Below are positions 4,575 through 33,622 of a stretch of 33,821 nucleotides of DNA, in pieces; the stretch's first letter is position 1, and every line of letters begins with the position of its first letter. Source of the stretch: a virus; the IMG/VR virus record IMGVR_UViG_3300025520_000011, positions 1 through 33,821 of that record. One strand, 5' to 3'. The notes below the pieces were generated by a model, which was not told the DNA's origin, ran no database searches, and saw nothing but the letters and a program-made list of their open reading frames with translations. Both the position numbers and the translations under genes were made by a program.

Positions 4575-4646
4575 ACGGCTCCTGCACGGCTGCGCCAGGG
4601 CAGCGCAACAACCCTGTGCCGGATTCTCTGGAAACCGCCCTCGCCG

Positions 4647-4666
4647 CGCCTGCGGCGAGATGTCGT
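4647..4666. repeat. Module-boundary element, copy 1 (half element)
   Basis: CGCCTGCGG-CGA-GATGTCG, differing from the other copies only at its last base. It touches the stop codon of the small tail gene on its right. The distal AGTGTG half of the other three copies is absent here. It also forms part of a short hairpin (8-bp stem, 4640-4659). It separates the tail block from the lysis-side genes. Confidence 0.6.
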
Positions 4667-4887
4667 CAGACCTCGATCAGCTCGACCGGCAGGCTGGGCG
4701 CTTGGCCCTCGATCACGCCGCCGCGCACGAACACGGTCTGGCCCACCTGGGCGTCGCCCCGGGCCTTGAGCAAGCCACCCCCGGGCATCTCCAGCGTGGC
4801 GATGTTGTTGGCGACCGACTGCACCACGCCCACCTGCAAGGCGGGGTCGGGAATCAGGTCGAGGAAGGCTTTGTACAAGTTACGCAT
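4666..4887 (-). CDS. Small tail-tip-associated protein, OB-fold-like
   Basis: Encodes 73 aa; the ATG at 4887 overlaps the end of the 698-aa tail-tip gene by 8 bp. The pattern (VGVVQSVANNIATLEMPGGG, then a segment rich in small residues, then GQTVFVRGGVIEGQAPSLPV) looks like a small five-strand barrel such as those seen in baseplate or tail-tip proteins; this is a structural guess. Its coupling to the tail-tip gene suggests a partner or plug of the hub. No family is recognised with confidence. Its stop is contiguous with the intergenic element at 4647-4666. Confidence 0.7.
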   Translation of the reverse strand: MRNLYKAFLDLIPDPALQVGVVQSVANNIATLEMPGGGLLKARGDAQVGQTVFVRGGVIEGQAPSLPVELIEV

Positions 4888-6976
4888 AGTCGTGTACCTC
4901 CACGCCCAGGGTCTGCCAAACGTCGGGCATCTGCGCGTCCACCTGGGTGCTGCGCACGATGCCGATGCGCGATGCGCCGTTGTCGGTGTACTCCACGAAC
5001 GCCCCCGGCTGGATGATGCCCGTGGCCTGGAGCACCGGCAGGCGCAACTGGTGCTCGATCTGCTTGCCAGTGTCGCCCAGCACGGCCAAGCCCCGCTGGC
5101 GGGCCGCCGCTGCCGTGGTGATGAGCGGGTCCGTCACCATCGGGGCCAGCAAGTCGCCTGCGGTGCCCTGGCGGGTCACCCGGCCCAGCACGCCCTGCTC
5201 TGCGCCGCTCACGTAGACGCGGTTGTAGGCGGGCTTCTCCTTCCACGTCAGGCCCTCGCGGCTCACAACGTCGGCGGGCAGCACGAAGTCCGGGGTCACG
5301 GTGTCCCACTCCCACGGCTTAGTGGGGTACAGGTGGCGCACCTTGAAACTCTGCGCACTCGGGTGCGGGATCAGGTAGGCACCACCGGCCTGCGCCAGCG
5401 CGTTGAGCGCGCCGATGTAGGTGCCCTGGTGGTTCCAGACGCCTGCCGGGATGTTCCACGCCTCCAGCCCGTAGTCGATGTTCCAGCCCATCGGCACACC
5501 GTTGAACGTCAGCACGTCATCGAACAACTGCTGGTGGGTGCGCTCGCTGGTGTTGCCGAACGTCTGGACGGGGGCGTAGGGCGCGTCGAGGAAGGCGTTG
5601 CGGCCCCGGCCACTGATGTTGATGGTGACCTGACCGAACGACCGCTCGCGGCCCACCTGCTCGGCCAGCACGCGGAACTCCTGGCCGTTGACCCAGGCGC
5701 TGAGTTCGACCGGCCCGTTGGTCGGCTCCACCAGGGCCTGGGACGTGGCCGGGAGCGAGGCGCTGAACCCCCACGACCAACTGGACACGTCCAGGCTCAG
5801 GCTGAAACGGAGAGCAGGCACCACGGCGTTGTCGCTGGTGCGGCGAAGGGCGAGGTTGTTGAGCACGATGTAAACCCTCTGTACGGGGACGATGATCGGT
5901 TCGACTGGCGGCTCCGGGGGAGCCTCACCGTCGCAGATGAAGAACAGCCGCGTGTCGCCCGTCCACGGGTACTGGAAGACCAGATTGCTGTCGGGCGTGT
6001 AGCAACCCCCTTCAGGTGGCAAGGGCGGCAGCACGATGCTGATGCCCGCTGGCGGGGGCACGCCGTCTTGGAAGGCCCCGATGAGCCCATTGATGAGCGC
6101 CGTGGCCGACTGGAACCCGCCGTAGTGCGCAGCGACATGCAGCTTCAGCGCCTCGTCGTAGCTCGACTGGCGGCGGGCGTGCGTCTTCGTGCCGTCCTGA
6201 TGTTTGTACAGTGTGGCGTTGCGGGTCTTCGTGGCGTTCTGGAACACACCCTCGCGGTTCTGCCAGATGGCCGTGGCGTCCTGCGAACGGCCCAGGGTGT
6301 CGTCGTGCGCCCGGGTGCCGCGCTGGAAGGCGTCGCGCTGGTCGTTGCGCACCGCCTGGAGGTCGGCAGGCAGCTTGTGCTCGATGGTCTGCGAGCCGTT
6401 GGTCACGCGCTGCCAGAACGCTTCCCAGCCCACCGGCTTGCGCACGGTGTCTTGCTGCGGCTGGCTCGGGCCTGTCTGCACCTTGCTGGCAACTTGGTGC
6501 GGTGCGTCGGTCGCGCCCACCGTCGGGCGTTGCGTGCGCGTGAAGTATTGCGCCTCGGCCAGCATCACCAACCCGGGCATTTGACCCGAGACAGACACCG
6601 GGGTGGAGGGCCGCACTGCGCCGCTGGCGGCTTGCAGCGCAGGCAACGCGCCCGACACGTTGATGTCGATGCGCCCGATCAGCCCGACGACTGCCGTGAG
6701 CCCCGGCATCGTGCCGCTGACGTTGACCGCGACAGCCGGTTCTTCCAGCGGGATGTACTTCGCCAGCCCGGGCATGGTGCCCGAGAAGGCCAGATCGACC
6801 GGCAGCGGCAGGCCATCCGGCTCGCCGAAGGTCAGCGTCGTGGTGGCGGGGGCCTTGTTGCTGAACTGGAACGACAAACGCCCGTCGGGTCCGACAGGCG
6901 TGTTCTCGTACTGGATCGGGTCAAAAACCAGATCGCCGTTGGCGGCGGGTCCATCCCCGAACTCAAAGTCGGCCAA
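4880..6976 (-). CDS. Tail-tip / hub protein
   Basis: Encodes 698 aa. No ATG is available near the N-terminus; the likely start is TTG at 6976, with GGGG 6 nt upstream inside the preceding stop region. That preceding stop (TAA, 6980-6982) is in the same frame. Residues 59-137 hold four short repeats of the type V-x-x-SGTMPGL, about 22 residues apart. Residues 150-300 are helical and rich in N, Q, T, K (FQNATKTRNATLYKHQDGTK) and look like a stalk. The last ~340 residues (VQRVYIVLNNLALRR to VEVHDYA) have the pattern of gp27-like hub domains of siphophage tail tips. It should sit at the distal end of the tail tube and take part in adsorption or opening of the tail. Confidence 0.7.
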   Translation of the reverse strand: MADFEFGDGPAANGDLVFDPIQYENTPVGPDGRLSFQFSNKAPATTTLTFGEPDGLPLPVDLAFSGTMPGLAKYIPLEEPAVAVNVSGTMPGLTAVVGLIGRIDINVSGALPALQAASGAVRPSTPVSVSGQMPGLVMLAEAQYFTRTQRPTVGATDAPHQVASKVQTGPSQPQQDTVRKPVGWEAFWQRVTNGSQTIEHKLPADLQAVRNDQRDAFQRGTRAHDDTLGRSQDATAIWQNREGVFQNATKTRNATLYKHQDGTKTHARRQSSYDEALKLHVAAHYGGFQSATALINGLIGAFQDGVPPPAGISIVLPPLPPEGGCYTPDSNLVFQYPWTGDTRLFFICDGEAPPEPPVEPIIVPVQRVYIVLNNLALRRTSDNAVVPALRFSLSLDVSSWSWGFSASLPATSQALVEPTNGPVELSAWVNGQEFRVLAEQVGRERSFGQVTINISGRGRNAFLDAPYAPVQTFGNTSERTHQQLFDDVLTFNGVPMGWNIDYGLEAWNIPAGVWNHQGTYIGALNALAQAGGAYLIPHPSAQSFKVRHLYPTKPWEWDTVTPDFVLPADVVSREGLTWKEKPAYNRVYVSGAEQGVLGRVTRQGTAGDLLAPMVTDPLITTAAAARQRGLAVLGDTGKQIEHQLRLPVLQATGIIQPGAFVEYTDNGASRIGIVRSTQVDAQMPDVWQTLGVEVHDYA

Positions 6977-6979
6977 GGC

Positions 6980-7372
6980 TTACCCCAGCACCGCACCCAC
7001 CAGCTTTGCGTCGCCACCAGCAAAAAGCTGACGGGTCGCCATCTGGATTTCGCCGTTGTTCGTGCCGTCGTCCACGTCGGCGTCAAAACAGGCTTGGCCG
7101 TCGCCGTTGACGAAGCGGCCCCAGGTCGCTAGCCCGCTGGTGGAGATCAGACCATCCTCCAGTTGCGTCAGCGTCAACTGGCCGTTCGCCACCACGCCAG
7201 CCGGCTGGGTCAACGTGATCTGCACCAGCAAACTGCCCGTGGCCGGGTCACCCGCCGTGGCGGGGCGAGCACCCTCGTAGATTTGCAACTTGGCAGGGCC
7301 AGTGGCCGAGTCGAGGTGGGCCAGCGTACCGTTGAGCCGGTACTCGTTGTGGAGTTGGGTGATGGTAATCAT
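6980..7372 (-). CDS. Small beta-rich tail protein of unknown function
   Basis: Encodes 130 aa; the ATG at 7372 overlaps the upstream stop (ATGA). The sequence alternates hydrophobic strands and polar turns (ITITQLHNEYRLNGTLAHLD, GSLLVQITLTQPAGV, DGQACFDADVDDGTNNGEIQ), suggesting a beta-sandwich. It lies in the adsorption block between a Cna-like domain protein and the tail-tip protein. Its TAA stop is followed after one codon by the TTG start of the next gene in the same frame, so a read-through product joining the two is formally possible. No family is recognised. Confidence 0.65.
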   Translation of the reverse strand: MITITQLHNEYRLNGTLAHLDSATGPAKLQIYEGARPATAGDPATGSLLVQITLTQPAGVVANGQLTLTQLEDGLISTSGLATWGRFVNGDGQACFDADVDDGTNNGEIQMATRQLFAGGDAKLVGAVLG

Positions 7373-7725
7373 GTCGCGCTCAGGTTGTCGGCAATGACTG
7401 CCCGGTAGTAACCCGTGTGATCGTAGGCAATCACGGTGTATCGCGCCTGCGGGAGGAGTTCGCTGAAGGTGTACACGCCGGTCAGCGGGTCGCTGACGGT
7501 CTCGCGGATCACGTTGCCCGACTGTTCTTCGATCAGGATGACGCGGCGGGCCACCGGCTGGTTGGGCGAGCCGAGGTTCTTCACCGTGCCGGTCAGTGTG
7601 GCCGTGCCGAGTTGCGGGTCGAAGCGGAACACCACCGGCTGGCTGGGCAGCGTGGTGGTTGGGTTGAGCGGCATGATCTCGCCCACCGCGTACTGCATGT
7701 TGATGTCAGTGAGTGTGGTCGTCAT
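7369..7725 (-). CDS. Small tail protein with carboxypeptidase-regulatory-like (Cna-B-type) domain
   Basis: Encodes 118 aa; both ends overlap neighbours by ATGA. Residues about 40-115 (GTATLTGTVKNLGSPNQPVA, RRVILIEEQSGNVIRETVSD, GVYTFSELLPQARYTVIAYD) form a seven-strand sandwich of the carboxypeptidase-regulatory-like type. The same domain closes the 455-aa protein just upstream, with the matching segments TGTV/AGTV, RRVILIEEQSG/RRVRLYDENG and YTFSEL/FVFTEL. The pair looks like a domain duplication. Such domains in phage tails stiffen fibres or bind sugars; here the role is inferred from position only. Confidence 0.7.
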   Translation of the reverse strand: MTTTLTDINMQYAVGEIMPLNPTTTLPSQPVVFRFDPQLGTATLTGTVKNLGSPNQPVARRVILIEEQSGNVIRETVSDPLTGVYTFSELLPQARYTVIAYDHTGYYRAVIADNLSAT

Positions 7726-9089
7726 ACAGCCACCACCTTATCCACCGTCAGCGCCCGGTAGTTGTTCTCATAGTCGTAAGTCACCACCGTGTAGGCGTAG
7801 GCCGGGTTCAACTCGGTAAACACGAACTCGCCGGTCACGGCATCGCTCCAGACCTCGCGGATGAACTGCCGACCGTTCTCGTCGTACAGCCGTACACGAC
7901 GGCGCAGCGGGACGTTCGGCACCTTCTTGACCGTGCCCGCCACCGTGGCCGTGCCGCCGTAGGCGATGTCGATGCGGTTGGGCGCTGGGGCGATCTGGCT
8001 GGTGACGGTGGCCGGGGGCGTGTACTCGCTGATGCGGGTGGGGAACGGAACCGGACGGGGCCCCGCTTGCGGTTTCAGTGGTGCAACCGAGCCGTCCATG
8101 AAGTTTGCGGCCACAGGTGGTGTGAACGCGGCGAGGTATCGACAAACACCCACCTCAACCCTTGTTGGCCCGAAATAAGCAGGGCTGCGCTCGGCTGAAC
8201 GGAACTGCACGCGGTCGATGACCACCGGAATGTCGTCTATCCAAGTACCTTTGTTCTGTCCCGCGACCCAAAGCGTGTTCGTGGACCCCTCACGAGTCCA
8301 CGCCACATGCCTCGTGGTGTTGGCCGCGACACCCGAACTCTCGGACGCGACCACTATGCCGGATGCGTCGGTGGCCTCAATCCGATGGTCTGAGTTTGTA
8401 ACCCACTTGACACGCAAACTAGACCCTGCGTTGAAAGAAAGCTGCGCGCTGACGTTTGCCGGTGTAGGGTCCGTCGCGGTGGTAGTTATTCCACCACCCA
8501 GGTAAGTCTCTATGGTGAAGTCACCTTGTAAAACATCACCGATCTCGTAGTAAATCTGCCGACCAGTGGGGCCAAGAACAGTCGTTTGCAAACCGCTATT
8601 TGGCGACGACAACTGGACAAAAGAAGCCGAAGTCAAAATAGCTGGCGTATACGCCAAATTATCCAGACTCAAGTTGTATGGGGCGTTCCAGATAAAGCGA
8701 AACCGTTTGTAGTCTGGATCGCCACCTGACACGTTTACGGGCGGAGAGCCGTCCCAACGCGCCCAGCCGCTAAAAGCCGTTGCCCAAAATGCCCCGCTTT
8801 CGGAATGTTGGACAACCCAAAAACCCGGCCCGCCCCGTGCTGTTGTAGGTGTGAACTGCACGTCATCCACATCCTGCGCCACCCCAAAATCCCACTGCAA
8901 CGCGAACCCCGGCTGGCGCGCATCAGCAGCGGCCCAGCGGCCTGCCGAGATCGGCGCGAAGGTGCTGGTGAACGTCGCACCGCCGTCCACCCGCGAGCCG
9001 CCCGAGTACAGGGCGATGTCACTCAATTCAAGGTCGCCACCACCGTAGGTGGAGATGCCGACAATTCTCCAGTAACGTGCAGCAGGCAT
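7722..9089 (-). CDS. Modular adsorption protein: discoidin-like, LamG-like and Cna-B-like domains
   Basis: Encodes 455 aa. Three beta-sandwich domains are visible. Residues 5-140 (RYWRIVGISTYGGGDLELSD ... WDFGVAQDVDDVQFTP) resemble F5/8-type-C (discoidin) domains. Residues about 150-325 (DVLQGDFTIETYLGGG ... RHVAWTREGSTNTLWVAGQN) resemble a laminin-G/concanavalin domain. Residues about 375-455 are a carboxypeptidase-regulatory-like domain repeated in the next gene. All three types bind carbohydrate or build fibres in other proteins, so this is a good candidate for a receptor-binding protein. It lies directly after the two paralogous tail proteins. Domain calls are by eye. Confidence 0.7.
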   Translation of the reverse strand: MPAARYWRIVGISTYGGGDLELSDIALYSGGSRVDGGATFTSTFAPISAGRWAAADARQPGFALQWDFGVAQDVDDVQFTPTTARGGPGFWVVQHSESGAFWATAFSGWARWDGSPPVNVSGGDPDYKRFRFIWNAPYNLSLDNLAYTPAILTSASFVQLSSPNSGLQTTVLGPTGRQIYYEIGDVLQGDFTIETYLGGGITTTATDPTPANVSAQLSFNAGSSLRVKWVTNSDHRIEATDASGIVVASESSGVAANTTRHVAWTREGSTNTLWVAGQNKGTWIDDIPVVIDRVQFRSAERSPAYFGPTRVEVGVCRYLAAFTPPVAANFMDGSVAPLKPQAGPRPVPFPTRISEYTPPATVTSQIAPAPNRIDIAYGGTATVAGTVKKVPNVPLRRRVRLYDENGRQFIREVWSDAVTGEFVFTELNPAYAYTVVTYDYENNYRALTVDKVVAV

Positions 9090-10262
9090 TTACCAGGGCC
9101 CTGTGATGTCGAAGAAGATGGTGGCCGCGGTGGCCGCAGCCGTGTTGGGCACGCCGATACTTTTTACCGCCAGCAACTTTCGGCCAGCGTAAGCGCCCTG
9201 ACCGTCGATCTTGTCGCGCCAGTTGAAAGTTGTATCCGCTAGAGTGTGGCAGGGGTACAGAAGCCCGCGCAGCCGACCGCGATTTCCGGTAGAGCCTTCA
9301 TAAAGAAAGGCGGGCGCGAGGTACAGACCGTTATCGGGCCCGTTTGGGTATGTGAATAGACCGACAGCACCAGGGTGCGTGTTGTTAGTGTTCGGGTACT
9401 CTATCTGCCGAATAATCTGGAGCGACCCACCGATTGCAGTAAAGGCCCGCGCCACAAAACCCTCGTTCGCTGAGGTGCCCGAGTAAGAAATGCCAGAGCC
9501 CAAAGACGATGTTATGGCACCGGCTGACGCGCTGTGACCTGTTATGTAGCAGCCAAAAGCGTCACCGGATTTGGCGCTGTTGAAATCCCCAAAAACCCAA
9601 CCATAACTATTCGGCATGACCCCCGCGCCGTTCGTGCTGGTGTTCACAAACACGTAGAACGCCCTGTCATCCGCGATCACCGTCCAAGCTCGCGCAACAC
9701 CCGCTGCTGCGCTAGCTTTCGGCCACCACAAACCGCCAGACCGCTGAGTGTTCGTCGGGAACGGCCCCGTGCCGGTGTTCACGTCGGTCATGCTCTCGTA
9801 GCCGACCACCCTGGCGTCGGTCGTACCTGTGTCGTCCACCCGCAGGAACTCTCGCGTCCCGGCCACGTTGGCACTGCGGTACACGGCAAGGTTCGTCCCG
9901 CTGAAGGGCTTTTCCCAACCAGCCGGCGCCAGCCGTGCGTTGATGGCGCCCGTGGCCGTCGTGTCGGCGATGCCTGGGGCTGCGAACGTGATCGTGTTCG
10001 TCGTGGCCGACAGCACGCGCTTCTCGCCGTTGAGGCCCGCAGGCGTCGCCCCGGCGATCAGCACGATGGTGTCGGGCTCGTAGCCGTGGCCCGCGCTGAT
10101 GTTCGCCGTGGCGACGTTCGCGGCCACCGTGAGGCTGTCCACCGTGCGCAGGCTGAACCCGTTGACGAGGCAGGCGTCGAGCACGCCGATCAGAGAGCCC
10201 GCCGTGCCGTTGAGCACGGGGGCGTCGGTCATCGCCGAATGAAAATACTTGACAGAGGTCAT
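9090..10262 (-). CDS. Tail adsorption protein, paralogue B
   Basis: Encodes 390 aa. The ATG at 10262 shares a base with the stop of the upstream paralogue (TGATG); the frame is open to 10334, but that stretch overlaps the other gene. It is clearly related to the 392-aa product of the preceding gene: matching N-termini (MTSVKYFHSAM against MSTAVKFFHSGM), LVNGF, GLNGEKRVLSAT against ALNGEKRVLTTA, and the C-terminal GRKLLAVKS and FFDITGPW against GRKLMALKC and FVDITGPW. The middles differ. This pattern, conserved ends with divergent middles, is typical of duplicated receptor-binding proteins. No enzymatic motif is seen. Confidence 0.7.
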   Translation of the reverse strand: MTSVKYFHSAMTDAPVLNGTAGSLIGVLDACLVNGFSLRTVDSLTVAANVATANISAGHGYEPDTIVLIAGATPAGLNGEKRVLSATTNTITFAAPGIADTTATGAINARLAPAGWEKPFSGTNLAVYRSANVAGTREFLRVDDTGTTDARVVGYESMTDVNTGTGPFPTNTQRSGGLWWPKASAAAGVARAWTVIADDRAFYVFVNTSTNGAGVMPNSYGWVFGDFNSAKSGDAFGCYITGHSASAGAITSSLGSGISYSGTSANEGFVARAFTAIGGSLQIIRQIEYPNTNNTHPGAVGLFTYPNGPDNGLYLAPAFLYEGSTGNRGRLRGLLYPCHTLADTTFNWRDKIDGQGAYAGRKLLAVKSIGVPNTAAATAATIFFDITGPW

Positions 10263-15024: not shown

Positions 15025-15025
15025 C

Positions 15026-15421
15026 TCAAATCTCCATCAGCCGCAGCGTGGCGGTGTAGTAGTCGCCCGTCTGAACGTCGGCGTAGTGGACGACGGGTGT
15101 CGCCTGTATCACTTCACCTTCGTGATGCCGCCATGTGACATTGTAGGAGATTCCACGATGTGAAAGCAACATCTCACATCCTGGAATAGAAGCCCAGGCC
15201 ATGAGCGTCTCCAAAGTGGCCCGTGTGATCCAAGAAGCGTTCTCGGCCTCGGGCTGCAAGGTGATCGGGCGGCCCGCGATTCGGGCGTGCGCCTGGATCA
15301 CCAGCGCCCCGGTGATGGTGCGCTCGGCGGTCTGCACCACGGGTTGCCAACTCGCTTCGTCCGACCAGTACAGGTCGTCGGGCAGGTTGATGGTGGTGCC
15401 GTTGTAGGACAGGGTGGTCAT
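15026..15421 (-). CDS. Minor tail protein downstream of tape measure
   Basis: Encodes 131 aa; its ATG shares one base with the tape-measure stop (TGATG at 15419-15423). The first residues read TTLSYNGTTINLPDDLYWSD, followed by WQPVVQTAERTITGALVIQA, a pattern seen in small tail-tip proteins encoded just after tape measures (the place of gpM in lambda). The rest is beta-rich. It probably joins the tail tube to the tip complex. The family assignment rests on position and general pattern rather than on a diagnostic motif. Confidence 0.7.
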   Translation of the reverse strand: MTTLSYNGTTINLPDDLYWSDEASWQPVVQTAERTITGALVIQAHARIAGRPITLQPEAENASWITRATLETLMAWASIPGCEMLLSHRGISYNVTWRHHEGEVIQATPVVHYADVQTGDYYTATLRLMEI

Positions 15422-19359: not shown

Positions 19360-19371
19360 GCTGCGTTACTC

Positions 19372-19396
19372 AAAAAAAGTGGGCGCAAGCGCCCAC
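19372..19396 (-). terminator. Intrinsic terminator after tail tube gene
   Basis: On the minus strand a hairpin GTGGGCG-CTTG-CGCCCAC (19379-19396) is followed by seven T (19378-19372). It lies between the tail tube stop and the tape measure start. A partial terminator here would give many tail tube copies and few tape measures, matching virion needs. Confidence 0.8.
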
Positions 19397-19425
19397 CGAA
19401 CCCTCAAAGGAGACCAAGGAAACAA

Positions 19426-20190
19426 TCAAGCCGCATTGAGCAGTTGCACGGTGAACGGCTCCGTCTTACCGGTCGGGGTCTTCAGGCGACCCGGCAGGCT
19501 GATGGTGGCGAAGTCGTCGCTCAGGAAGTCGAACGCGGAATCCGCAGAAATCACGGCTTCGAACACGTCCACGATCACCGGCAACTGGTCGGCGAAGTTC
19601 ACGCCGTCCAGGCGGAACTTGGCACGAATCTGGCTGTTCACGGCACCACGGATCAGGGTGCCGCCCACTGCGCCGTAGGTGCCGGTCACGTTGACGGTGG
19701 CGCCGTCAGCGATGGCAGAGCCGGCCAGAATCTTCAACCAGCCCAGGCGGTAGTTAATCTCGTAGTCGGTGCCCAGGACGTAGGTCACGGTGCCAGCGGA
19801 GTTCTCCACGGCGAAACCGGCCTCGGCCACGTTCTGCTTGCCCAGGTCGATCCATTCACCCTTCTTGGTCACGACGACCGGGGTGTCGGCCCAGGAACCG
19901 CTGCCCTGGTTGATGGTGGACTCGGTGCCCAGCAGAGCGATGGACAGGGACTCCTTGTTCACCTCGGGCAGTTCCAGGGTGAAGTCGGCAGGCTGCGGCA
20001 GGGCCACGGTCTCGATCACTTGGCCGTAGGTGTTGCGGCCCCGGCTGGCGAGTTCTTTCAGCTCGACGTTCGGCTTGATCTCGAACTTGGTGGCTTCAAA
20101 CGGGCCAGTGAAGCCGTCGAAGGTGCCGGTGGCGGGGTTGTAGCGAGAGATGTAGAGGTCGCCAGCCCCAAGGAAACCGCGAGATGCCAT
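19426..20190 (-). CDS. Major tail (tail tube) protein
   Basis: Encodes 254 aa from the ATG at 20190, with GGAG 7 nt upstream; a TTG two codons earlier is less likely. Early text GAGDLYISRYNPATGTFDGF, then FEATKFEIKPNVELKELASR and ADFTLELPEVNKESL, is typical of tail tube proteins: a beta-sandwich with a long loop that stacks rings in the tube. It holds the place of lambda gpV (after the Z- and U-like genes, before the tape measure). High expression is suggested by its own terminator downstream and by a 94-bp leader with the boundary element upstream. No extra Ig-like C-terminal domain is obvious; length is close to lambda gpV. Confidence 0.85.
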   Translation of the reverse strand: MASRGFLGAGDLYISRYNPATGTFDGFTGPFEATKFEIKPNVELKELASRGRNTYGQVIETVALPQPADFTLELPEVNKESLSIALLGTESTINQGSGSWADTPVVVTKKGEWIDLGKQNVAEAGFAVENSAGTVTYVLGTDYEINYRLGWLKILAGSAIADGATVNVTGTYGAVGGTLIRGAVNSQIRAKFRLDGVNFADQLPVIVDVFEAVISADSAFDFLSDDFATISLPGRLKTPTGKTEPFTVQLLNAA

Positions 20191-20240
20191 TTGCAAACTC
20201 CAAAAAGTGCGCCCAACAGGGCTGATGAACGATGGTGCAG

Positions 20241-20284
20241 AGTGTGTTCAAAACACGTCTGCGCCGCCTGCGGATAGATGTCGC
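20241..20284. repeat. Module-boundary element, copy 2
   Basis: AGTGTG (20241-20246), 18 bp, CGCCTGCGG (20265-20273), ATA, GATGTCGC (20277-20284). It touches the stop codon of the U-like gene (TCA at 20285-20287) and lies in the leader of the tail tube gene. The distal half overlaps an imperfect hairpin whose inner arms are GTGTT and AACAC. Confidence 0.7.
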
Positions 20285-21411: not shown

Positions 21412-21708
21412 TTACAGCACCTTCGGTTGCAGGGTGAACCGCATCGTGTAGCCGTTGTCTTGCAGCAGGCCGTCGAGCACGAAGTTGCCCATCGGGTGTT
21501 GCAGCTCGTCGCCGACCTTGGCACCCAGGCGGGCGTCCAGCGTCGCCACGTCGCGGCTGAACACCGCGTCGTCGAACTGGCCCATCACCTGCACGCCACG
21601 CTCCACGTTGACCTTGCAGGGTGTCGAAGTCATGCCTCGCAGCAAAAAAGCGTCCTGGCCGAGATGACGCAGGACGCTCCGTGCAAGGCGCTCGAAAGCG
21701 CCGCTCAT
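21412..21708 (-). CDS. gpFII-like head-tail connector
   Basis: Encodes 98 aa; its ATG shares a base with the major capsid stop (TGATG). Helical start (FERLARSVLRHLGQDAFLLR) followed by strands (CKVNVERGVQVMGQ, FSRDVATLDARLG, GNFVLDGLLQDNGYTMRFTL) agrees with the small alpha/beta connector proteins that take the place of lambda FII between capsid and Z genes. Lambda FII is 117 aa, a similar size. It should bind the portal-proximal stopper and receive the tail. No FI-like gene separates it from the capsid gene, unlike lambda. Confidence 0.72.
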   Translation of the reverse strand: MSGAFERLARSVLRHLGQDAFLLRGMTSTPCKVNVERGVQVMGQFDDAVFSRDVATLDARLGAKVGDELQHPMGNFVLDGLLQDNGYTMRFTLQPKVL

Positions 21709-22703: not shown

Positions 22704-22716
22704 TTTGGTGCTCCTA

Positions 22717-23067
22717 TCAGCGAACGATGATGCCCAGGGCGGCCAGATCGGCGGTGCCTGCGGCGTCCAGGCCGGTCAGTTCAGCGCCCACCACTTCCGC
22801 GCTGCGGGCGATGATGACGGCGCCTTGGTCGGCTGCGGCGTCGGGGACGGCGCGGTACAGCACGCCAGCGGCGATTTCAGCGCCACCGGAACCGGCGTTG
22901 TTGTAGGCGGTGTACTTGCCGTTCGCCAGTTTGGCGACGACAGTGCCTGCGGCCATCGCACCGGCAGCGGCGTCGATGGTCACTTCTTCACGACTGATCG
23001 AGCCATTGCCTTCCGACAGAATGAACTCGGCAGTGTGCTTGCCTTCCGTGAGAACGGTCATGGTCAT
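22717..23067 (-). CDS. Head decoration protein, lambda gpD type
   Basis: Encodes 116 aa; the ATG at 23067 overlaps the protease stop (ATGA), though an in-frame ATG two codons later is possible. The start TVLTEGKHTAEFILSEGNGS and the following SREEVTIDAAAGAMAAGTVV match the gpD family, whose trimers lock onto the expanded capsid at threefold sites. The C-terminus carries VGAELTGLDAAGTADLAALG, again typical. Size equals that of lambda gpD (110). It lies directly upstream of the major capsid gene. Confidence 0.9.
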   Translation of the reverse strand: MTMTVLTEGKHTAEFILSEGNGSISREEVTIDAAAGAMAAGTVVAKLANGKYTAYNNAGSGGAEIAAGVLYRAVPDAAADQGAVIIARSAEVVGAELTGLDAAGTADLAALGIIVR

Positions 23068-24104
23068 GCTCCTTGCAGATGTTTACGACGCGCAGCCCAG
23101 ATGTCAGAGGTTTTGACCGCAGCGGGCTGCGCGCCCTGAGACTGCGTGTTCGATGCCTGGGGAGACGTGTCAACGTGAGCTTCCTCGTCCTCCATAGCAG
23201 CAAAAATGGCGGCACGGGCCTCGGCCAGAGGGGTGCCTTTGCGAATGAGTTGGTCGGCCATCGCCTCGCGCTTCGCCAGCACGCACAGCGACTTGATCTC
23301 GCGGGCTTCGGCAGCGCGGGCCTTGACGGCGGCCAGATCGGCCAGCTTCGGGTCAAGTGCCCACTGGGCGGCGTAAGCCTCCATGCCCAGTGCAGCGGAA
23401 ACCTCCACCACCTGATCTGCATGGGTCGCGGCAGGAACCCCCACCTCGTTGCTCACGCTGCCGTGGCGGGTGTCTTCGTCGGCGTCCGGGTGCTCCGGGT
23501 CCACGTCCTTGGCGTCTTCCTGCGCCAGCGCGTAGGCCACGCGGGCCCGCTCGGGCAGGCGCTCCAGATCAAAGCTGGCGCGGGCTTCCACGGCGGGCAG
23601 CACCTTGGTGGCGAAGCCCATGTCCAGGGCTTCCTGGGCCGAGAGCCAAGTCTCGGTGTCCAGCATGGACTTGATCTCGTCTTCGTCCTTGCCGGTGCGC
23701 TTGGCGTAGGTGGTGACCAGGGAGGTGCCGATCTTGTCGAGCACGTCGGCGGTGGCCCGCAACTCGTCGGCGTCGCCCACGGCGAACGTCCACGGGTTGT
23801 GGATCATCATCATCGCGTTCTCGGGCATCTCGATCTCGTCGCCCGCCATCGCTACGAGGCTGGCGGCAGAGGCGGCAATGCCCATGACCTTGACGTTGAT
23901 CTTCTTGCCGCTGGCGCGCAGGCCGTTGTAGATCGCCAGACCGGCGAACACGTCGCCGCCCGGCGAGTTGATCTCCACGTTCACGGCTTCGGCCTTGATC
24001 GACTTCAGGTCGTCAAGAAAGGATTTGGCCGAAACGCCATACGCCCCGATGTCGTCAAACACCGTGAGCGTGTCGTTTGCGGCGAGGTTGTACCAAGTCT
24101 TCAT
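23064..24104 (-). CDS. ClpP-like prohead protease with scaffold-like C-terminus
   Basis: Encodes 346 aa. The N-terminal ~170 residues are ClpP/S14-like: INSPGGDVFAGLAIYN, GIAASAASLVAMAGDEI with the likely nucleophile S79, MMIHNPW with H102, and MLDTETWLSAQEALDMGFA with D149. It processes head proteins during assembly. Residues about 200-330 are acidic and helical, then the tail ends SDIWAARRKHLQGA, a composition expected of a fused scaffold, comparable to lambda C with its internal Nu3. I see no convincing internal ribosome site, so separate scaffold expression is unproven. The gene opens the capsid module after copy 3 of the boundary element. The start ATG has only a weak upstream purine stretch. 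Confidence 0.9.
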   Translation of the reverse strand: MKTWYNLAANDTLTVFDDIGAYGVSAKSFLDDLKSIKAEAVNVEINSPGGDVFAGLAIYNGLRASGKKINVKVMGIAASAASLVAMAGDEIEMPENAMMMIHNPWTFAVGDADELRATADVLDKIGTSLVTTYAKRTGKDEDEIKSMLDTETWLSAQEALDMGFATKVLPAVEARASFDLERLPERARVAYALAQEDAKDVDPEHPDADEDTRHGSVSNEVGVPAATHADQVVEVSAALGMEAYAAQWALDPKLADLAAVKARAAEAREIKSLCVLAKREAMADQLIRKGTPLAEARAAIFAAMEDEEAHVDTSPQASNTQSQGAQPAAVKTSDIWAARRKHLQGA

Positions 24105-24128
24105 AGGGTGTTCCCAAGATTTACGGCG

Positions 24129-24172
24129 AGTGTGTGCAAATCAGACGCTTCGCGCCTGCGGGCGGATGTCGC
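24129..24172. repeat. Module-boundary element, copy 3
   Basis: AGTGTG (24129-24134), 18 bp, CGCCTGCGG (24153-24161), GCG, GATGTCGC (24165-24172). It touches the stop codon of the 66-aa gene (TCA at 24173-24175) and lies in the leader of the protease gene. Confidence 0.7.
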
Positions 24173-24373
24173 TCAGAGCAGCAGAGCCAGCAGCAACTCG
24201 TCTTCTTCGCGCTGGCGCTTGCGGCGGGCTTGGTTGCCGACCGTCCACAGGAGGTCGTCAATCTCAGGCTCGGGCGGCTTTTTCTTGAGCGTGAAACCCT
24301 GGAGCGCGGTCGAGGCTGGCCCGTAGCCGATGCCCTGCACGGCCACCGCCCGGGAGTCCAGCGTCTCGTTCAT
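24173..24373 (-). CDS. Small basic/acidic protein of unknown function
   Basis: Encodes 66 aa; the ATG overlaps the upstream stop (ATGA). It contains YGPASTALQGFTLKKKPPEP, then DDLLWTVGNQARRKRQREED and ends in a run of leucines and alanine (LLLALLL). The charged helix plus short hydrophobic end could be an interaction peptide. It is the last gene of the block inserted between portal and protease and is likely co-translated with the 211-aa gene. No family recognised. Confidence 0.65.
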   Translation of the reverse strand: MNETLDSRAVAVQGIGYGPASTALQGFTLKKKPPEPEIDDLLWTVGNQARRKRQREEDELLLALLL

Positions 24374-25005
24374 GTGCGCGTCACCGTGGTGGTGCCGCCC
24401 GCCTCAGTGATCGTTTGAACCACGTCGCCCGCGACACGGGTCGTCGGGCCGACTTGCAGCGGCACGCCCTCCACCAGCCCGTGCAGCTTCGCCAATTCGA
24501 TGATGCGCAGCAGTTCGGCGGCCAACTCCAGGCGCACCTGACCGGCCACAGCGCCTACGTCGCCGGTCACCACGTTCTGCGTCGTGGTGACTTGGTTCAC
24601 GGTCGCGGCCACCGTCACGGGGAACACCGGCTGAATGGCCGCTGTCCAGTAGGCCGTGCCGAAGTCCTCGCTGAACAGCACGCCGTCCACCGAAGTGGCG
24701 TTCGGGTCGTACACCACCCGCCAGCCGTTCGTCATGAAGAACGTGGCCCCGGTGAAGCCGCCCGGGATGGGGTCGTAGCCCGAGTACCGCATGGCCGGGA
24801 GCCACTTGGTGTTCGTGTCCCCGTCCGCGTGCGTCACGCGCACCCAGTCCTTCCATCGGCTGTACATCTCGGCCACGTCCAGCCGCGCCAGGGCCGGGTC
24901 CACGAACACAAAGCGGCCCGCCCCGTCGAAGCGGAACGGGCCTTGGGTGTCCGAGTCCACCGTCACGTAGCCGGTGCGGACGTAGCCGGGATCGACGTAG
25001 TTCAT
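24370..25005 (-). CDS. Virion-type protein of portal-protease insert (211 aa)
   Basis: Encodes 211 aa; both ends overlap neighbours (ATGA). The N-terminal ~130 residues are beta-rich and include MYSRWKDWVRVTHADGDTNT, WLPAMRYSGYDPIPGG and TNGWRVVYDP; the segment around YSRWKDW parallels YSWLKERWK of the 446-aa protein two genes upstream, suggesting a shared attachment domain. The C-terminal part (ELLRIIELAKLHGLVEGVPL followed by a short threonine-rich end) is a helix then strands, as often seen in phage structural proteins that trimerise. Probably a virion appendage component; the exact role is unknown. Confidence 0.65.
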   Translation of the reverse strand: MNYVDPGYVRTGYVTVDSDTQGPFRFDGAGRFVFVDPALARLDVAEMYSRWKDWVRVTHADGDTNTKWLPAMRYSGYDPIPGGFTGATFFMTNGWRVVYDPNATSVDGVLFSEDFGTAYWTAAIQPVFPVTVAATVNQVTTTQNVVTGDVGAVAGQVRLELAAELLRIIELAKLHGLVEGVPLQVGPTTRVAGDVVQTITEAGGTTTVTRT

Positions 25006-25631
25006 GCGTAGAAGTTCGGCGACTTGTTGGGAGTGTTGCGGCGGTCAGACTCGTAGTGGAAGTCCACCAGCAAGCCGAACACGTTGTCGGGGTTCTCGGT
25101 GCCGCCGTTGCTCACGCGGCGCAGCGTCACCAGCAGAATCTCGTCAGGCTCGGTCAGCGTCAGCGCCTGCGCCAAGTCCATCTCCGTCACCATGTGCCGC
25201 CACGCGCCACCGAAGGCAGGCTGCTCCACGAAGTAGCTCGTCTCGGCGGTGAAGTAGGCTTGCCCGTGGCCCAGGGCGCGGCTGATCTGCATCTCCCAGC
25301 GCACCGGCTGGGTGCTCTCGCCGCTGGTGCTCCAGTGGACGTGACAGACCGCCCTGCCCCCCGGCTTCACGTCGTGGTTGACGTGCAGCGGGGCGCTGAA
25401 CGCATAGTCGCCCACCTGGAACGCCATCTCCCGCCGCAGGCCCGAGGGGCCGAACGGCAGGTATTCCGGTGCGAACTCGGTGGGTACGCCGATCAGCGAG
25501 AGCGGCGAGATAAGGTCCGACCACCCCTCTGCCGTCCGCGCATCCAGTTCGGCGATGTTCTGGTCGGCCTCCTGCGGCGAAAGGCTCGCGCCTTTCTCCG
25601 ACAGCAGCGTGATGGGGTGCAACACGGGCAT
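25002..25631 (-). CDS. Virion-type protein of portal-protease insert (209 aa)
   Basis: Encodes 209 aa; AGGA lies upstream of the ATG at 25631, and the stop overlaps the next start. After a helical N-terminus (LSPQEADQNIAELDARTAEG) comes a beta-sandwich with H-x-x-x-D-x-K-PGG (NHDVKPGGRAVCHVHWSTSG) and the ending DFHYESDRRNTPNKSPNFYA. The His-rich strand and the DFHYESDR...PNFY ending recur in structural proteins of other phages as far as I recall, but I cannot name a family. Likely a virion component made with its neighbours. Confidence 0.65.
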   Translation of the reverse strand: MPVLHPITLLSEKGASLSPQEADQNIAELDARTAEGWSDLISPLSLIGVPTEFAPEYLPFGPSGLRREMAFQVGDYAFSAPLHVNHDVKPGGRAVCHVHWSTSGESTQPVRWEMQISRALGHGQAYFTAETSYFVEQPAFGGAWRHMVTEMDLAQALTLTEPDEILLVTLRRVSNGGTENPDNVFGLLVDFHYESDRRNTPNKSPNFYA

Positions 25632-25641
25632 CGGTCAGTCC

Positions 25642-26982
25642 TTATACGGGGTTGTTGTAGTTCCGCTCCAGGGCCGGGGCCAGGAGGACGTTGATGCCCT
25701 GCGAACGGGTGATGGTGAAATCCACCGACGCAAACTGCCCGCCGTCCAGACCCAGACCCACCAGCTTCACGCTGGCGTTGGTGCCCGGTGTGCGGCCACC
25801 CTGGCTGTTGGAGTCGTAGGCGAAGCTGAACGGCACCGAAGCACCCGTGAAGGTGCCCTGAATCGGGTTGCCGTCCTTGTCGTTCACGATCACCGCGCTC
25901 GCCGTGCCGTAGCCGTCCGCGAAGAAGGCGCGGTAGATGAAGTCGCCTGCGCCCGCGTTGGCCCCGAAGTTGATCGTGCCTGCCGACACGAACGGGTAGC
26001 GTCGCACCACGCCGTTGAAATCGTAGAAATCAACGCTGTTGAGGAAGTTGTCGTTCAGCGCGTTGATGTACACGCCGTTCGCACCCACCAGGGTGTCGCC
26101 CACGAAGCGCAGCAATTCGTCTGCCGTGCGGCCCACCACGGTGCCTGCGCCCGTGTCGATGTCGCTCGGCTGGCGCAGCAGGTACTGCACCTTCTCGTAA
26201 ATCTGCTGGGTCGTCGCCACCGTCGCGCCCTGGATCACGATGCGGTACGGCTCGTTGATGGAGTCGCCGTCCACGTCGTACATCTGGTCGGTGCCGAAAT
26301 ACTCGATGCTGATGGCGGTGTACGGCGCGGTCGAAGCGATGGTCGCGTCGCTGGCGTCGATCTTCAGGTCGGTGCCGTTGGACAGTGGGAAACGGTACGT
26401 GATGTACGACAGCGTGGCCGCACCGATGGCCGCGTTGTTCGACGAGGCGTAGGTTTTGCCCTGCTCGCGGCAGAACAGCTTGAACGGCGTGCCGTCCGTG
26501 TAGTTGAAGTTGCCGTTGGTGGCATCCCCGAAAATCTGCACCGCCTCGTTGATCGGGCCGGTGTAGGTGAAGTTGGTGGCCGCGCCGCTGCCGAACTGGT
26601 AGTAGGGCTGGTCCGTGCCGCCCAGCGAACCCAGCGACACCACACCGGCGTACAGTCGCTCCACCACACCGGCAGCAGAGCGTTCGGCCCATCCTGCGGT
26701 ACGGATCAGCTTGCGGGTGGCGTCATCAAACGGCTTCCAGCCGTTGATGAATTCAAACTGTTCGGGCGTGATGGACTCCATCGGGAACGGGAACTTGATG
26801 TAGTCCGCGTTCGCCTTCCAGCGTTCCTTCAGCCACGAATACAGGGCTTGGCCGGTCACGCCGCCCGTGGCCCCCTCGTTGTCCACGCCGCCCGTGGTGA
26901 GAATTCGGATGGTCCGGTTGGTGGTGTTGACCACCACGTCGGTCCCATCGACTAAAAAATCTGGATCAAAGATCACAGGCAT
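25642..26982 (-). CDS. Virion-type protein of portal-protease insert (446 aa)
   Basis: Encodes 446 aa. An ideal AAGGAG lies 6 nt before the ATG at 26982. The N-terminal ~90 residues include QALYSWLKERWKANADYIKF and ITPEQFEFINGWKPFDDATR, then long Gly/Asn/Thr-rich beta regions (YYQFGSGAATNFTYTGPINE, TDLKIDASDATIAS). The C-terminus ends ALERNYNNPV, echoing DRNYRNP at the end of the 489-aa protein, so the two may share a terminal signal or domain. Composition points to an exposed structural protein such as a head fibre or spike. No catalytic motif is seen. Confidence 0.68.
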   Translation of the reverse strand: MPVIFDPDFLVDGTDVVVNTTNRTIRILTTGGVDNEGATGGVTGQALYSWLKERWKANADYIKFPFPMESITPEQFEFINGWKPFDDATRKLIRTAGWAERSAAGVVERLYAGVVSLGSLGGTDQPYYQFGSGAATNFTYTGPINEAVQIFGDATNGNFNYTDGTPFKLFCREQGKTYASSNNAAIGAATLSYITYRFPLSNGTDLKIDASDATIASTAPYTAISIEYFGTDQMYDVDGDSINEPYRIVIQGATVATTQQIYEKVQYLLRQPSDIDTGAGTVVGRTADELLRFVGDTLVGANGVYINALNDNFLNSVDFYDFNGVVRRYPFVSAGTINFGANAGAGDFIYRAFFADGYGTASAVIVNDKDGNPIQGTFTGASVPFSFAYDSNSQGGRTPGTNASVKLVGLGLDGGQFASVDFTITRSQGINVLLAPALERNYNNPV

Positions 26983-26985
26983 GAT

Positions 26986-27180
26986 TTACTCCTTCGTGAA
27001 GGTCATTTGGTAGTTTGTGCCGCAGACGATGGCGGACCCGCCATCACCTGCATGAAAAACCTGCTGGACGCCAACCACATCCCCGTCAGGGAACGTGACC
27101 ACGCTGCCCACTTCAGGCAGTTGCTTAAAAACGTCACCGACGTGCTGGCCGTCCGTGGTGGTGGTGATGCGCCAAGCCAT
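26986..27180 (-). CDS. Small hypothetical protein of portal-protease insert
   Basis: Encodes 64 aa from the ATG at 27180, 1 bp after the stop of the upstream gene; the longer frame to 27261 overlaps that gene. Strands such as WRITTTTDGQHVGDVFK, EVGSVVTFPDGDVVGVQQVF and AIVCGTNYQMTF suggest a small beta barrel (SH3- or OB-like). Its stop lies within the ribosome binding region of the 446-aa gene, so the two are probably coupled. Function unknown. Confidence 0.65.
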   Translation of the reverse strand: MAWRITTTTDGQHVGDVFKQLPEVGSVVTFPDGDVVGVQQVFHAGDGGSAIVCGTNYQMTFTKE

Positions 27181-27181
27181 G

Positions 27182-28651
27182 TCAGGGGTTCCTGTAGTTG
27201 CGGTCGAACACTTGGGCCACGGGCAGCGTCGCGTCGGACGCGGCCAGTTGGTAGTTCTCAAGGCGGAAATAGTTGTAGGCCACGTTGTGGACCACGATGT
27301 CCACGGCCTGCGGGCTGGTGTAGCTGTACGCGGGGTTCACCCCTGCGGTCTTGCTCTCCAAGCCATAGAGTTCGGTGGTGGTGCCGTGTGCGTAGATGCG
27401 CACTTCCGAGCCATCGACCACGCCGGTCAGCGTCAACGTCGCAGACGCCTGCACGGTCACGGCAGACCCGGTGCTGGTCACACCCGAGGCGGTGCCACCG
27501 CCCGACACGTTCACCGTCACGGCGCTGCCGCTGGTATTGTTGATGTCGAAGGTGTTGCCGCTGAAGGTGATGCCGATGAAGTCCTTGGTGCCAGTCGTGT
27601 TGATCTGGATGGCGCGGCTGTTGCCCACGAAGTCGCAGTTCTGCACGCTGGTGCCATCGGGCCACAGCAGCGCGCCCAGCGCATCGGTCGAGCCGCGCAC
27701 GGTGTTGCCCGTGAACCCGGCCCCGGCGGTCTGAATCTGGTTGCAACCCTGGAACACGCAGCCGCTCACCGACTGGCCTGCCTTGAAGCGGGTGGCGTCA
27801 GCGTTCACCACGGTGTTGCCGTCGAACTCCAGCGTGTTGAGGTTGGCGTTGTTCAACAGCAGGTCGAACCGGCTGGCTGTGTTGGCCGACTTGATGACGC
27901 TGTTGGTCAGCCGGAACGTCGTGCTGGCCGTGCCCGCAGGCTCCAACTTGTACAGGTCGGCGTTCACCGGCTGGTTCTCGAACACCACGATCTGGTTCGT
28001 GTCGTTGAACACGGTCGTGGTCGCACCCCCGATGGTCAGGTTGGTGTTGACGAAGTACACGCCGTTCTGGCGACGCACAGCGCCATACCCCGATGCCGCA
28101 TCCACAGCGGCCACGCCAGCCCAATCAATCGGGTCCAATTCGCTGCCGCCCGTGATCGTCAGGCCGTTGCCTCGAACGAGGTAGTCGTACCAAGTGTTCG
28201 TGGCGTTACGGGGTGCGCCAGTCAGGTTGAGCGTGAAGCCGACGCGGTTGATCTGGGTCCGGTTGGGGGTGCCGGTCTGCGCGTCAAACGCCCGGTCCAT
28301 GTCCACCTGAAGCAGCGTCCAGCCGCCGTCGTAGGTGTCGATGCCTCCCAGATACCAGTAGCCGATGTTGCCAGCAGTGTCCTGTGCGAACAGGCGGATA
28401 CCACCGTTGGCCTGGGTTTGCAGGAAGCCGATGGAGGCGTAGTTCAGCCACATCCGCAGGTGCTGGCCGGTCGAGTTGAAGGTCGTCGTCGTGTACGTGC
28501 GGGTGTTCAGCCCCGCAGTACGCAAGATGCCCGACAGCGACGAGGTGCCCTGCTTGACCACCTCGGTGTCCAGCGTGCCCGCGCTCCACCCCGTCGTGCT
28601 GTCGCAGTCGGACAGAACGGTGAAGCCTGGGGTGAGCGTCGGGGTTGCCAT
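27182..28651 (-). CDS. Beta-helix virion protein with carbohydrate-binding-like N-terminus
   Basis: Encodes 489 aa; the start shares a base with the portal stop (TAATG). Residues 1-150 (VLSDCDSTTGWSAGTLDTEV ... GGWTLLQVDMDRAFD) look like a carbohydrate-binding jelly roll. Residues about 170-400 show the regular short-strand rhythm of a right-handed parallel beta-helix, with stacked N/G/V turns (GCVFQGCNQIQTAGAGFTGN, NCDFVGNSRAIQINTTG, GITFSGNTFDINN). The last ~80 residues (GSEVRIYAHGTTTELYG to DRNYRNP) form a sandwich. Such a layout belongs to phage tailspikes and appendages, but the gene lies in the head module. No catalytic acids can be assigned. Confidence 0.72.
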   Translation of the reverse strand: MATPTLTPGFTVLSDCDSTTGWSAGTLDTEVVKQGTSSLSGILRTAGLNTRTYTTTTFNSTGQHLRMWLNYASIGFLQTQANGGIRLFAQDTAGNIGYWYLGGIDTYDGGWTLLQVDMDRAFDAQTGTPNRTQINRVGFTLNLTGAPRNATNTWYDYLVRGNGLTITGGSELDPIDWAGVAAVDAASGYGAVRRQNGVYFVNTNLTIGGATTTVFNDTNQIVVFENQPVNADLYKLEPAGTASTTFRLTNSVIKSANTASRFDLLLNNANLNTLEFDGNTVVNADATRFKAGQSVSGCVFQGCNQIQTAGAGFTGNTVRGSTDALGALLWPDGTSVQNCDFVGNSRAIQINTTGTKDFIGITFSGNTFDINNTSGSAVTVNVSGGGTASGVTSTGSAVTVQASATLTLTGVVDGSEVRIYAHGTTTELYGLESKTAGVNPAYSYTSPQAVDIVVHNVAYNYFRLENYQLAASDATLPVAQVFDRNYRNP

Positions 28652-30534
28652 TACTCGGAGTCCTTCTCAACCTGAGTGGCCTTGACCAGATTGCCGTACT
28701 GGTCACGTTCGATGGTGGTTTCGGTCTTGCGGGCGGGGAGTTCCAGCTTCACCGCTGCTGGGGCCACGTTGAACACGGGCTGCACCTCGGCGGGCACCAC
28801 TTTGTTCTCGATCACGGGGGCGGCCACGTTCACGGTGGGCCCTTCCACGCTGACCTCGGGGGCGGCCACGTTCACCACGGGCGTCTCCACCTTGTTTTCC
28901 ACCAGGGTGGGCGGGATGTGGTTGTTGATGACCAACTGCTGCGGCTCGGACTTCTGCCCCATCAGCGCCGCCTGGATGGCGTTCATCTGCTGGGCCAGTG
29001 CCGCGAACTGCTTGAGCAGTTCAGCGTTCGGCGGCGCGGCGTACTCCTCGTCGTCGATGCCGTCGGTGTCGCCCTGCTCGGGCGGCTCGACCGGCTCACC
29101 GTTGGCGTCGAGTTGGCCGGTGGGGTCTGCGTACAGGCCCATCGACTTCTCGCGCTCCAGATCGGCAGCGCGCTCGGCGTCCACCGTGTCGGGGTCGTCG
29201 CCGCGTTCGGCGATGACGCTGGAGCGGCTGCGGAATCCGCTTTCGACTTCCAGGGCCTTGCCCTGCGGGTCTTGCACCGGGTGGATGTACGCCCAGCCGT
29301 GCGGTGCCCACTCGACCATCGCCACGTCATTGGCTTCGGCCATCGACACCAAGCCCGCGAGCACCGCCGCGTCCGTCCACCACTGGCGAACGGGCTGGCA
29401 GAACATCGGGATCACCGTGTGCCACTGGCGCTGTTCGGCAAATCGACGGAACTCGTTGATGACGACGCGAAGGGTCCGGTCAGAAACCTCCTTGATGTCA
29501 CCACTGAAAAGCTCGTAGGGGATGCCGGTTGCAGCACTGGTGCCCAGATGCTGCGTCCGCATGTAGTCACTGTATGTCGTCCCAGCCTCTGGAGGGTTGG
29601 AGAACTTGACATCTTGACCATATTCCAACTCCTGCATGATGCCCGGTTGCAGACCGGCCAGCGGCTCGCCGCCCGACATCTCGATGGGCAGGTTGGTCAG
29701 GGGGTCGATGTCCACATCGCCGCCCAGGCCCCGGGTGATGAACACCGCAAACAGGTTCGCCAGTTTCTGGCGTTCCAGCACGGCGTCGTCGTAGTCGTTG
29801 ATCGAGCGCAGACGGGCCAGCACCGACGCCAGCGCCGAGACGCCGCGCAACTGCCCTGGGCGCTTGACCTCGTAGATGTGCTTCACGTCGCTGGCGGGGA
29901 TGCGCAGCAGGTTCTGCATACCGGCCAGCGTGCCCTCGCCCGGGTGCTCCCGGTGCATCCAGTAGGCCACGCGCTGGCCGCGCCGGTCCAACTCGATGCC
30001 CTGGCGAATCTTGTTGCCGATGGGCAGACCCGGCCATGTGTCGGCGTCGAACACGGGCACGAACTCGGCCTCTATCAGTTGCACCTGCATCGGCACTTCC
30101 ATGCCGCTGTCCAGGCGTCGGGCGCGCTTGCGCACGAACACCTCGCCGCTGTCCAGCCACGCCCGCACCACCAGGGCTTGCAGGCCGTAGAAGTTCAGCA
30201 CGCCGTCGGCATCGGCCACTTGGACCCAGCGGTCCCACAGGTCGATGAGTTCCTGCTTGCGCGGGCCCGAGGGCAGCCGTTTGAGGCGGGGCGTGATGCC
30301 CACGCCGATCAGGTTGGTGACCCACTTCTGCGTGGCCGACTCACCCGACCAGTCGTTGCGCACCACGTCGCGGGCGCGGTTGCGGATGTTCTGAAGGCCC
30401 GTGATGGCTTTGTTCGGGCCGCTCGACGGGGGCATCCAGCCCTTCATGCGACGGCCAGTCCCGGCGGCGTCGTACTTGTTGCTCACCTCAAGCCGCTTCT
30501 GCGCGGCTGGGTTGGGTTTGCGCGGTCGGCCCAT
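28651..30534 (-). CDS. Portal protein, lambda family, with repeat-bearing C-terminus
   Basis: Encodes 627 aa; its ATG shares a base with the upstream stop (TGATG). The first ~500 residues show the lambda gpB family: RNRARDVVRNDWSGESATQK, WVTNLIGVGITPRLK, GLQALVVRAWLDSGEVFVRK, GVSALASVLARLRSINDYDD. Twelve copies form the channel at one capsid vertex through which DNA enters. The last ~110 residues are an extension: after a helix (ELLKQFAALAQQMNAIQAAL) come beta repeats of the form VVNVAAP/TVNVAAP and an end ETTIERDQYGNLVKATQVEK. Lambda gpB has 533 aa, so the extension accounts for the extra length. Confidence 0.92.
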   Translation of the reverse strand: MGRPRKPNPAAQKRLEVSNKYDAAGTGRRMKGWMPPSSGPNKAITGLQNIRNRARDVVRNDWSGESATQKWVTNLIGVGITPRLKRLPSGPRKQELIDLWDRWVQVADADGVLNFYGLQALVVRAWLDSGEVFVRKRARRLDSGMEVPMQVQLIEAEFVPVFDADTWPGLPIGNKIRQGIELDRRGQRVAYWMHREHPGEGTLAGMQNLLRIPASDVKHIYEVKRPGQLRGVSALASVLARLRSINDYDDAVLERQKLANLFAVFITRGLGGDVDIDPLTNLPIEMSGGEPLAGLQPGIMQELEYGQDVKFSNPPEAGTTYSDYMRTQHLGTSAATGIPYELFSGDIKEVSDRTLRVVINEFRRFAEQRQWHTVIPMFCQPVRQWWTDAAVLAGLVSMAEANDVAMVEWAPHGWAYIHPVQDPQGKALEVESGFRSRSSVIAERGDDPDTVDAERAADLEREKSMGLYADPTGQLDANGEPVEPPEQGDTDGIDDEEYAAPPNAELLKQFAALAQQMNAIQAALMGQKSEPQQLVINNHIPPTLVENKVETPVVNVAAPEVSVEGPTVNVAAPVIENKVVPAEVQPVFNVAPAAVKLELPARKTETTIERDQYGNLVKATQVEKDSE

Positions 30535-30755
30535 CAGTACCCCCGGCCTTGGTAATAGGCGTATGTGCGCTTGGTGCGCCGCTTGCCCGCAGCCGCAGCG
30601 GCTTCGTCTTGCATCTGCTGCTTGAGGTCATTGCGTGCTTTGATGAGGTCGTCCACCGACCGATACGTCACGCTCTGGCCGTTCAGCACCACGACGCGCT
30701 CGCCCGACGCGATGGCCGCGTTCAGCGTGTCGATGTCTGCTTGCGAAACCGCCAT
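30534..30755 (-). CDS. gpW-like head-tail joining protein
   Basis: Encodes 73 aa from the ATG at 30755; a TTG two codons earlier is possible. It reads SQADIDTLNAAIASGERVVV, LNGQSVTYRSVDDLIKARND, i.e. helix, hairpin with a basic and glycine turn, second helix, then a basic tail ending YYQGRGY. This helix-hairpin-helix plan and the place between large terminase and portal are those of lambda W (68 aa), which closes the portal after packaging. The Shine-Dalgarno is weak (GGGG). Copy 4 of the boundary element lies in its leader. Confidence 0.85.
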   Translation of the reverse strand: MAVSQADIDTLNAAIASGERVVVLNGQSVTYRSVDDLIKARNDLKQQMQDEAAAAAGKRRTKRTYAYYQGRGY

Positions 30756-30785
30756 GCCCAAAGCCCCAAAGTTAAAAGTTGAGGC

Positions 30786-30829
30786 AGTGTGGGTTTTTCG
30801 GGGTTTTTTCGCCTGCGGAGAGATGTCGC
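30786..30829. repeat. Module-boundary element, copy 4
   Basis: AGTGTG (30786-30791), 18 bp, CGCCTGCGG (30810-30818), AGA, GATGTCGC (30822-30829). It lies in the gap between the gpW-like gene (leftward) and the antisense ribbon-helix-helix gene (rightward). Unlike copies 1-3 it does not touch a stop codon. The 18-bp spacer and the bases before it hold a direct repeat GGGTTTTTCG/GGGTTTTTTCG. Confidence 0.7.
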
Positions 30830-30850
30830 GTGAGTTTTCGTTTTGGTTAG

Positions 30851-30864
30851 TGTGTATGATTCAA
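30851..30864 (+). repeat. 14-bp start-region repeat, copy at antisense gene
   Basis: TGTGTATGATTCAA, containing the first ATG of the antisense gene. The identical 14 bp, in the same position relative to the start codon, occurs at 33590-33603 (minus strand) at the small terminase gene. Confidence 0.6.
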
Positions 30865-33603: not shown

Positions 33604-33622
33604 TCTTTTCATATCGTGGGAC

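Follow-up and report, generated by a model that had tools for sequence, protein, structure and literature searches.

Late promoters of phage P2 are activated by Ogr, a small phage activator that acts from a short dyad at about -55, and cluster K mycobacteriophages carry SAS/ESAS, a repeated short intergenic element found before several genes, with SAS at the ribosome site. In phage Mu, the Mor site occupies -51 to -36 (centre -43.5) of a promoter without a recognisable -35 element (PMC4287176), and C is the activator of the promoters lys, I (head), P (tail) and mom (PMC4461284). The 33,821-nucleotide stretch of viral DNA analysed here (the window) has, in the gaps of its late operon, four copies of an element made of a 16-bp box and a -10-like hexamer. 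Judging from sequence comparisons, each copy is probably an activator-dependent late promoter for the host RNA polymerase, working with a phage activator of the Mor/C type. The box would stand in for the -35 element, spanning about -49 to -34 when the hexamer is placed at -12 to -7, and the late activator would bind it and recruit the host polymerase, which would have no usable -35 at these sites, to the hexamer (CACACT or GAGAAT in the window). The units for head start, capsid, tail and lysis would each have their own promoter and be turned on jointly by a single activator.

This arrangement would share with P2 the presence of several late promoters under one small phage activator, but no dyad like that of Ogr was seen. 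It resembles SAS/ESAS as a repeated short intergenic element before several genes of one phage; in contrast, the element here mostly precedes the start codon by about 60-110 bp and bears a -10-like hexamer. The likeness to Mu Pm and its Mor site is by geometry only: if the hexamer occupies -12 to -7, the box is centred at about -41.5, the spacer is 21-22 bp and, as in Pm, there is no usable -35. Pm, however, stands alone as a middle promoter and its site is dyad-symmetric, whereas here there are several late promoters and an asymmetric box. As with the Mu late promoters Plys, PI, PP and Pmom, several promoters with non-consensus -10 and -35 elements stand before lysis, head and tail units and would answer to one Mor/C-type activator (PMC4461284), although the box has another sequence, without dyad symmetry, and the phages carry lambda-like head genes and another tail type.

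Copies of the element in the late operon

In order along the minus strand, the late genes encode terminase (33192-31060), a head-tail adaptor and a portal (from 30761), a ClpP-like protease, a decoration protein, capsid E, a neck protein, the major tail protein, the tape measure (19359-15421, -), tail proteins and a lysozyme (3668-2889, -). The element is therefore read in transcription order as CGACAT-N4-CCGCAG-N21-CACACT, which in its longer form is GCGACATC-N3-CCGCAGGCG-N18-CACACT. The sequence-only reading had described a bipartite pattern with a constant 18-bp spacing at 20241-20284, 24129-24172 and 30786-30829, and exactly these three matches were recovered, with 0 mismatches and 0.00 expected in shuffles.

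The copy at 30786..30829 (-), with box CGACATctctCCGCAG at 30828-30813, a 21-bp spacer and CACACT at 30791-30786, precedes the head-tail adaptor and lambda-type portal genes (28651..30761, -; phrog_2545 and PF05136). That at 24129..24172 (-; box 24171-24156, CACACT 24134-24129) stands before the genes for the ClpP-like head maturation protease (23064..24104, -; PF00574, E=3e-33), decoration protein and capsid, and that at 20241..20284 (-; box 20283-20268, CACACT 20246-20241) before the major tail protein gene (19426..20196, -; phrog_807, E=1.1e-47). A right half alone had been reported at 4647-4666; the half is present, with 1 mismatch, but the copy is complete, because GAGAAT at 4623-4628 occupies the CACACT slot at the same spacing. 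This fourth copy (4623..4666, -; box 4665-4650, -10-like GAGAAT 4628-4623) precedes the gene at 4140-4574 and the lysozyme gene, and GAGAAT was also found after one box of the related Acidovorax phage ACF1, one base further away. In all four, the hexamer lies 27 bases after CCG. The confinement to intergenic gaps also held, with 4/4 copies in gaps of the late operon; by our gene list, no more than about 4% of the late region is non-coding. The TGA of the upstream gene stands immediately before the copies at 4647, 20241 and 24129, and not before that at 30786. A fifth site in the window, at 7462 (-), has TACGAT at the right distance and was judged a chance match; its box has a mismatch and it lies inside a CarboxypepD_reg-like coding stretch.

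No sigma-70 consensus promoter (TTGACA/TATAAT-like elements 16-18 bp apart) was found in the window between 19000 and 31200. Against the promoter reading, the hexamer mostly lacks the first T of TATAAT. An intrinsic-terminator-like hairpin (19378..19397, -) sits right after the major tail gene, likewise after the tail gene in PCA1 (a Curvibacter phage), ACF1 and the related contig L202, and suggests that the promoter at 20241 gives a short, strong tail-protein transcript. As a trait of box-bearing phages such a terminator was dropped, being not specific (15/45 versus 6/25).

When the spaced pattern was searched across 2.9 million viral contigs, four contigs matched. L042 (IMGVR_UViG_3300001796_000014) is 100% identical to window positions 25375-33795 (8421 bases) and has the same copy before the adaptor and portal genes. 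The other three (L122, L202 and L203), at about 67-72% identity to the window, keep the element before the same tail gene with equal spacing, and L122 also retains CGCACACTT 5' of the protease gene, corresponding to the copy at 24129. In L122 and L203 the element is displaced from the stop codon with spacing and hexamer unchanged. Absence of conserved spacing in relatives had been named as evidence that would count against the element, and the spacing held. For the 15-base pattern alone, almost all of the matches listed among viral contigs were inside coding sequence, apparently by chance; once spacer and hexamer were added, the relatives were the only remaining matches.

Several other features of the window were observed. 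Between portal and protease (24370-28651, -) lie four genes, of 489, 446, 209 and 211 aa, with no Pfam or PHROG family match. Between terminase and the promoter at 30786, a small ORF of 66 aa (30868-31068, +; MNQPRRGGPRRNAGRK...) runs antisense to the late genes; its C-terminal part resembles a ribbon-helix-helix repressor by eye, and the palindrome TGTGTTGAATCATACACA lies right at its start. A tyrosine integrase with an Arm-binding domain is encoded at 1068-2216 (+), so the phage is probably temperate.

The box in related phages

PCA1 and ACF1 have the same gene order as the window and a diverged element at the same borders, with boxes CGAAAT-N4-CCGTTG and CGAAAT-N4-CCGCAG, respectively. Tail-gene homologues from viral and bacterial contigs yielded 42 non-redundant upstream sites, selected by the box alone, with the consensus CGAAAT-N4-CCGCAG. 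A hexamer of the form NANNNT follows CCG at 27 bases in 67% of these sites and at 28 bases in 26%. Most other distances give about 0-12% (29 bases gives 17% and 44 gives 21%), and the background is 3%. Hexamers of the 28-base class often begin with T (TACACT, TAAACT) and are thus nearer to the sigma-70 -10 element. Across the family, the hexamer can be written S-A-N-A-C-T and the 16-bp box CGAMAT-N4-CCGYWR.

The box is repeated within genomes and oriented. In 24 records we counted 78 box matches, 74 of them on one strand, compared with 6 for a reversed control pattern. There are up to six copies per phage, PCA1 having 6 sites and ACF1 5 against about 0.2 expected, and the same signal recurs at the same places in dozens of related phages, including inside one gene. 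The six sites of PCA1 lie near 3251, 3616, 4727, 8629, 13624 and 55191. Because the phages and sites are related by descent, p values overstate their independence and the independent events are fewer than the site counts. Some tail-gene homologues have neither a gap nor a box upstream, and no such box with a strong hexamer was found in the Mu-like phages MuM16-1 and B23 or in phage Suso. In the profile of 42 sites, CGAAAT-N4-CCGCAG forms no inverted repeat; as the box is not a dyad, we say that these promoters work like Mu C/Mor promoters and not that they are members of that class. A description of the element was not found in the open-access literature, which is not proof of novelty, and the PCA1 paper is silent on promoters. 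Most likely, the asymmetric box is undescribed and serves promoters that work like those of Mu C/Mor.

Two further observations concern the tail-gene set. In a clade with CCGTT boxes (L204 at about 8665-8715, L213, L216 and L223), the tail-gene leader is conserved too (GTCAGTGTCCATnTTGCGACAT) and may be a leader RNA signal. Tail-gene relatives also occur in contigs labelled Clostridia and Aeriscardovia (L292 and L293, from rumen MAGs), possibly misbinned contigs of proteobacterial phages.

A copy buried in coding sequence

Most relatives that were checked carry an extra box where RNWAA is encoded in the small gene that follows the tape measure. The corresponding site in the window is 15187..15202 (-), where relatives have RN[WL]A[AV] and the window, with MAWAS, has lost the intragenic copy. 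This copy is in frame and the peptide RNWAAVPG is conserved, as expected if the box were a by-product of coding and no promoter. We regard that as somewhat unlikely, given how the codons are chosen. CGA-AAT is used for 15/16 RN pairs, despite shares of only about 16% for CGA among Arg codons and about 25% for AAT among Asn codons. At its third position, the Arg codon agrees with the phage's own intergenic box type in 16/16 cases, with CGC exactly where the intergenic boxes carry CGC and CGA where they carry CGA (Fisher p 0.002, which overstates independence as the phages are related). In the CCGTT clade the next Ala is replaced by Val, preserving CCGTT in 2/3 phages, and TTACACT follows the coding-embedded box at promoter distance. 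A shared trans-acting reader best accounts for the agreement in box type within each phage.

Candidate activators and other readings of the element

The placing of several late promoters ahead of the units for head, tail and lysis led us to predict an activator of the Mor/C type. Late activators of phrog_836 are encoded by PCA1 (E 9e-23) and ACF1 (E 8e-15), 42% identical to each other, and the PF08765 match passes its cut-off in PCA1 but not in ACF1. The family was detected in 13/23 related records, namely PCA1, ACF1 and 11/21 others; this count leaves out L248, which has phrog_836 and a tail gene without a box in front. Where present, the Mor gene precedes the first late promoter by roughly 0.5-9 kb, some of these positions wrapping around permuted contigs with circular permutation assumed. 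A search of the window for a Mor-type activator gave no match within this linear 34-kb fragment. We infer that the activator binds the box, that transcription starts at the copies of the element and that the activator gene lies in the missing part of the phage. A structure model of a Mor-type protein (pLDDT 71) had no significant match, only generic helix-turn-helix domains, a PDB sequence search turned up no Mor structure, and the letters of the activator recognition helix did not separate clearly by box type.

The same promoters could be read by a phage factor other than a Mor/C protein, such as an unrecognised DNA-binding protein or a sigma-like factor. Ten of the related contigs have no detectable Mor, the box is asymmetric and its conserved bases fall in separate blocks, like those of a sigma promoter. 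Many of the Mor-negative contigs are incomplete, however, several being short or breaking off within about 3-5 kb ahead of the first late promoter; moreover, phrog_836 activators are present in both named phages checked (PCA1 and ACF1), and the box is placed where Mor binds in Mu. Another factor is accordingly an unlikely reader.

The position of the element on the transcribed strand of late-gene gaps, often directly after a stop codon, would also suit an RNA-level signal in the late transcript, acting in antitermination (nut/put-like), processing or translational control. Yet RNAalifold found no pair in 20 sequences, single copies fold close to shuffles (z -0.2 to -2.0), no Rfam match was obtained, and a hexamer at fixed distance, patterned in A and T like a -10 element, is not expected of such a signal, making this reading very improbable. 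A recombination linker for module exchange, to which the placement of copies at module borders and their similarity within one phage would point, is hardly credible: the alignment of the window to L122 and to L202 runs at about 70% unbroken through the tail-gene copy, spacers vary between copies while box, distance and hexamer stay constant, and relatives carry a copy inside a gene. What stands of the original interpretation is thus the late regulatory signal, narrowed to a late promoter that depends on an activator; its suggestions of antitermination, RNA processing and a linker found no support.

With activator-dependent promoters as the preferred reading, we tentatively propose a wider picture, which we hold possible and somewhat short of probable: an undescribed late regulon, widespread among phages, whose single activator reads the asymmetric box and one of whose promoters lies inside conserved coding sequence. 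Synonymous codon choice there, and in one clade the change from Ala to Val, would track shifts in activator specificity. The coding-embedded copy would be a clean case of regulation constraining codon choice. The element would provide a sequence rule for locating late promoters in a large, little-studied group of tailed phages and would link those promoters to a candidate activator family. If box type does drift as a unit in each phage, the recognition code of that family would be readable from genomes, and natural box variants paired with their activators would offer material for understanding how Mor/C-type proteins read DNA.
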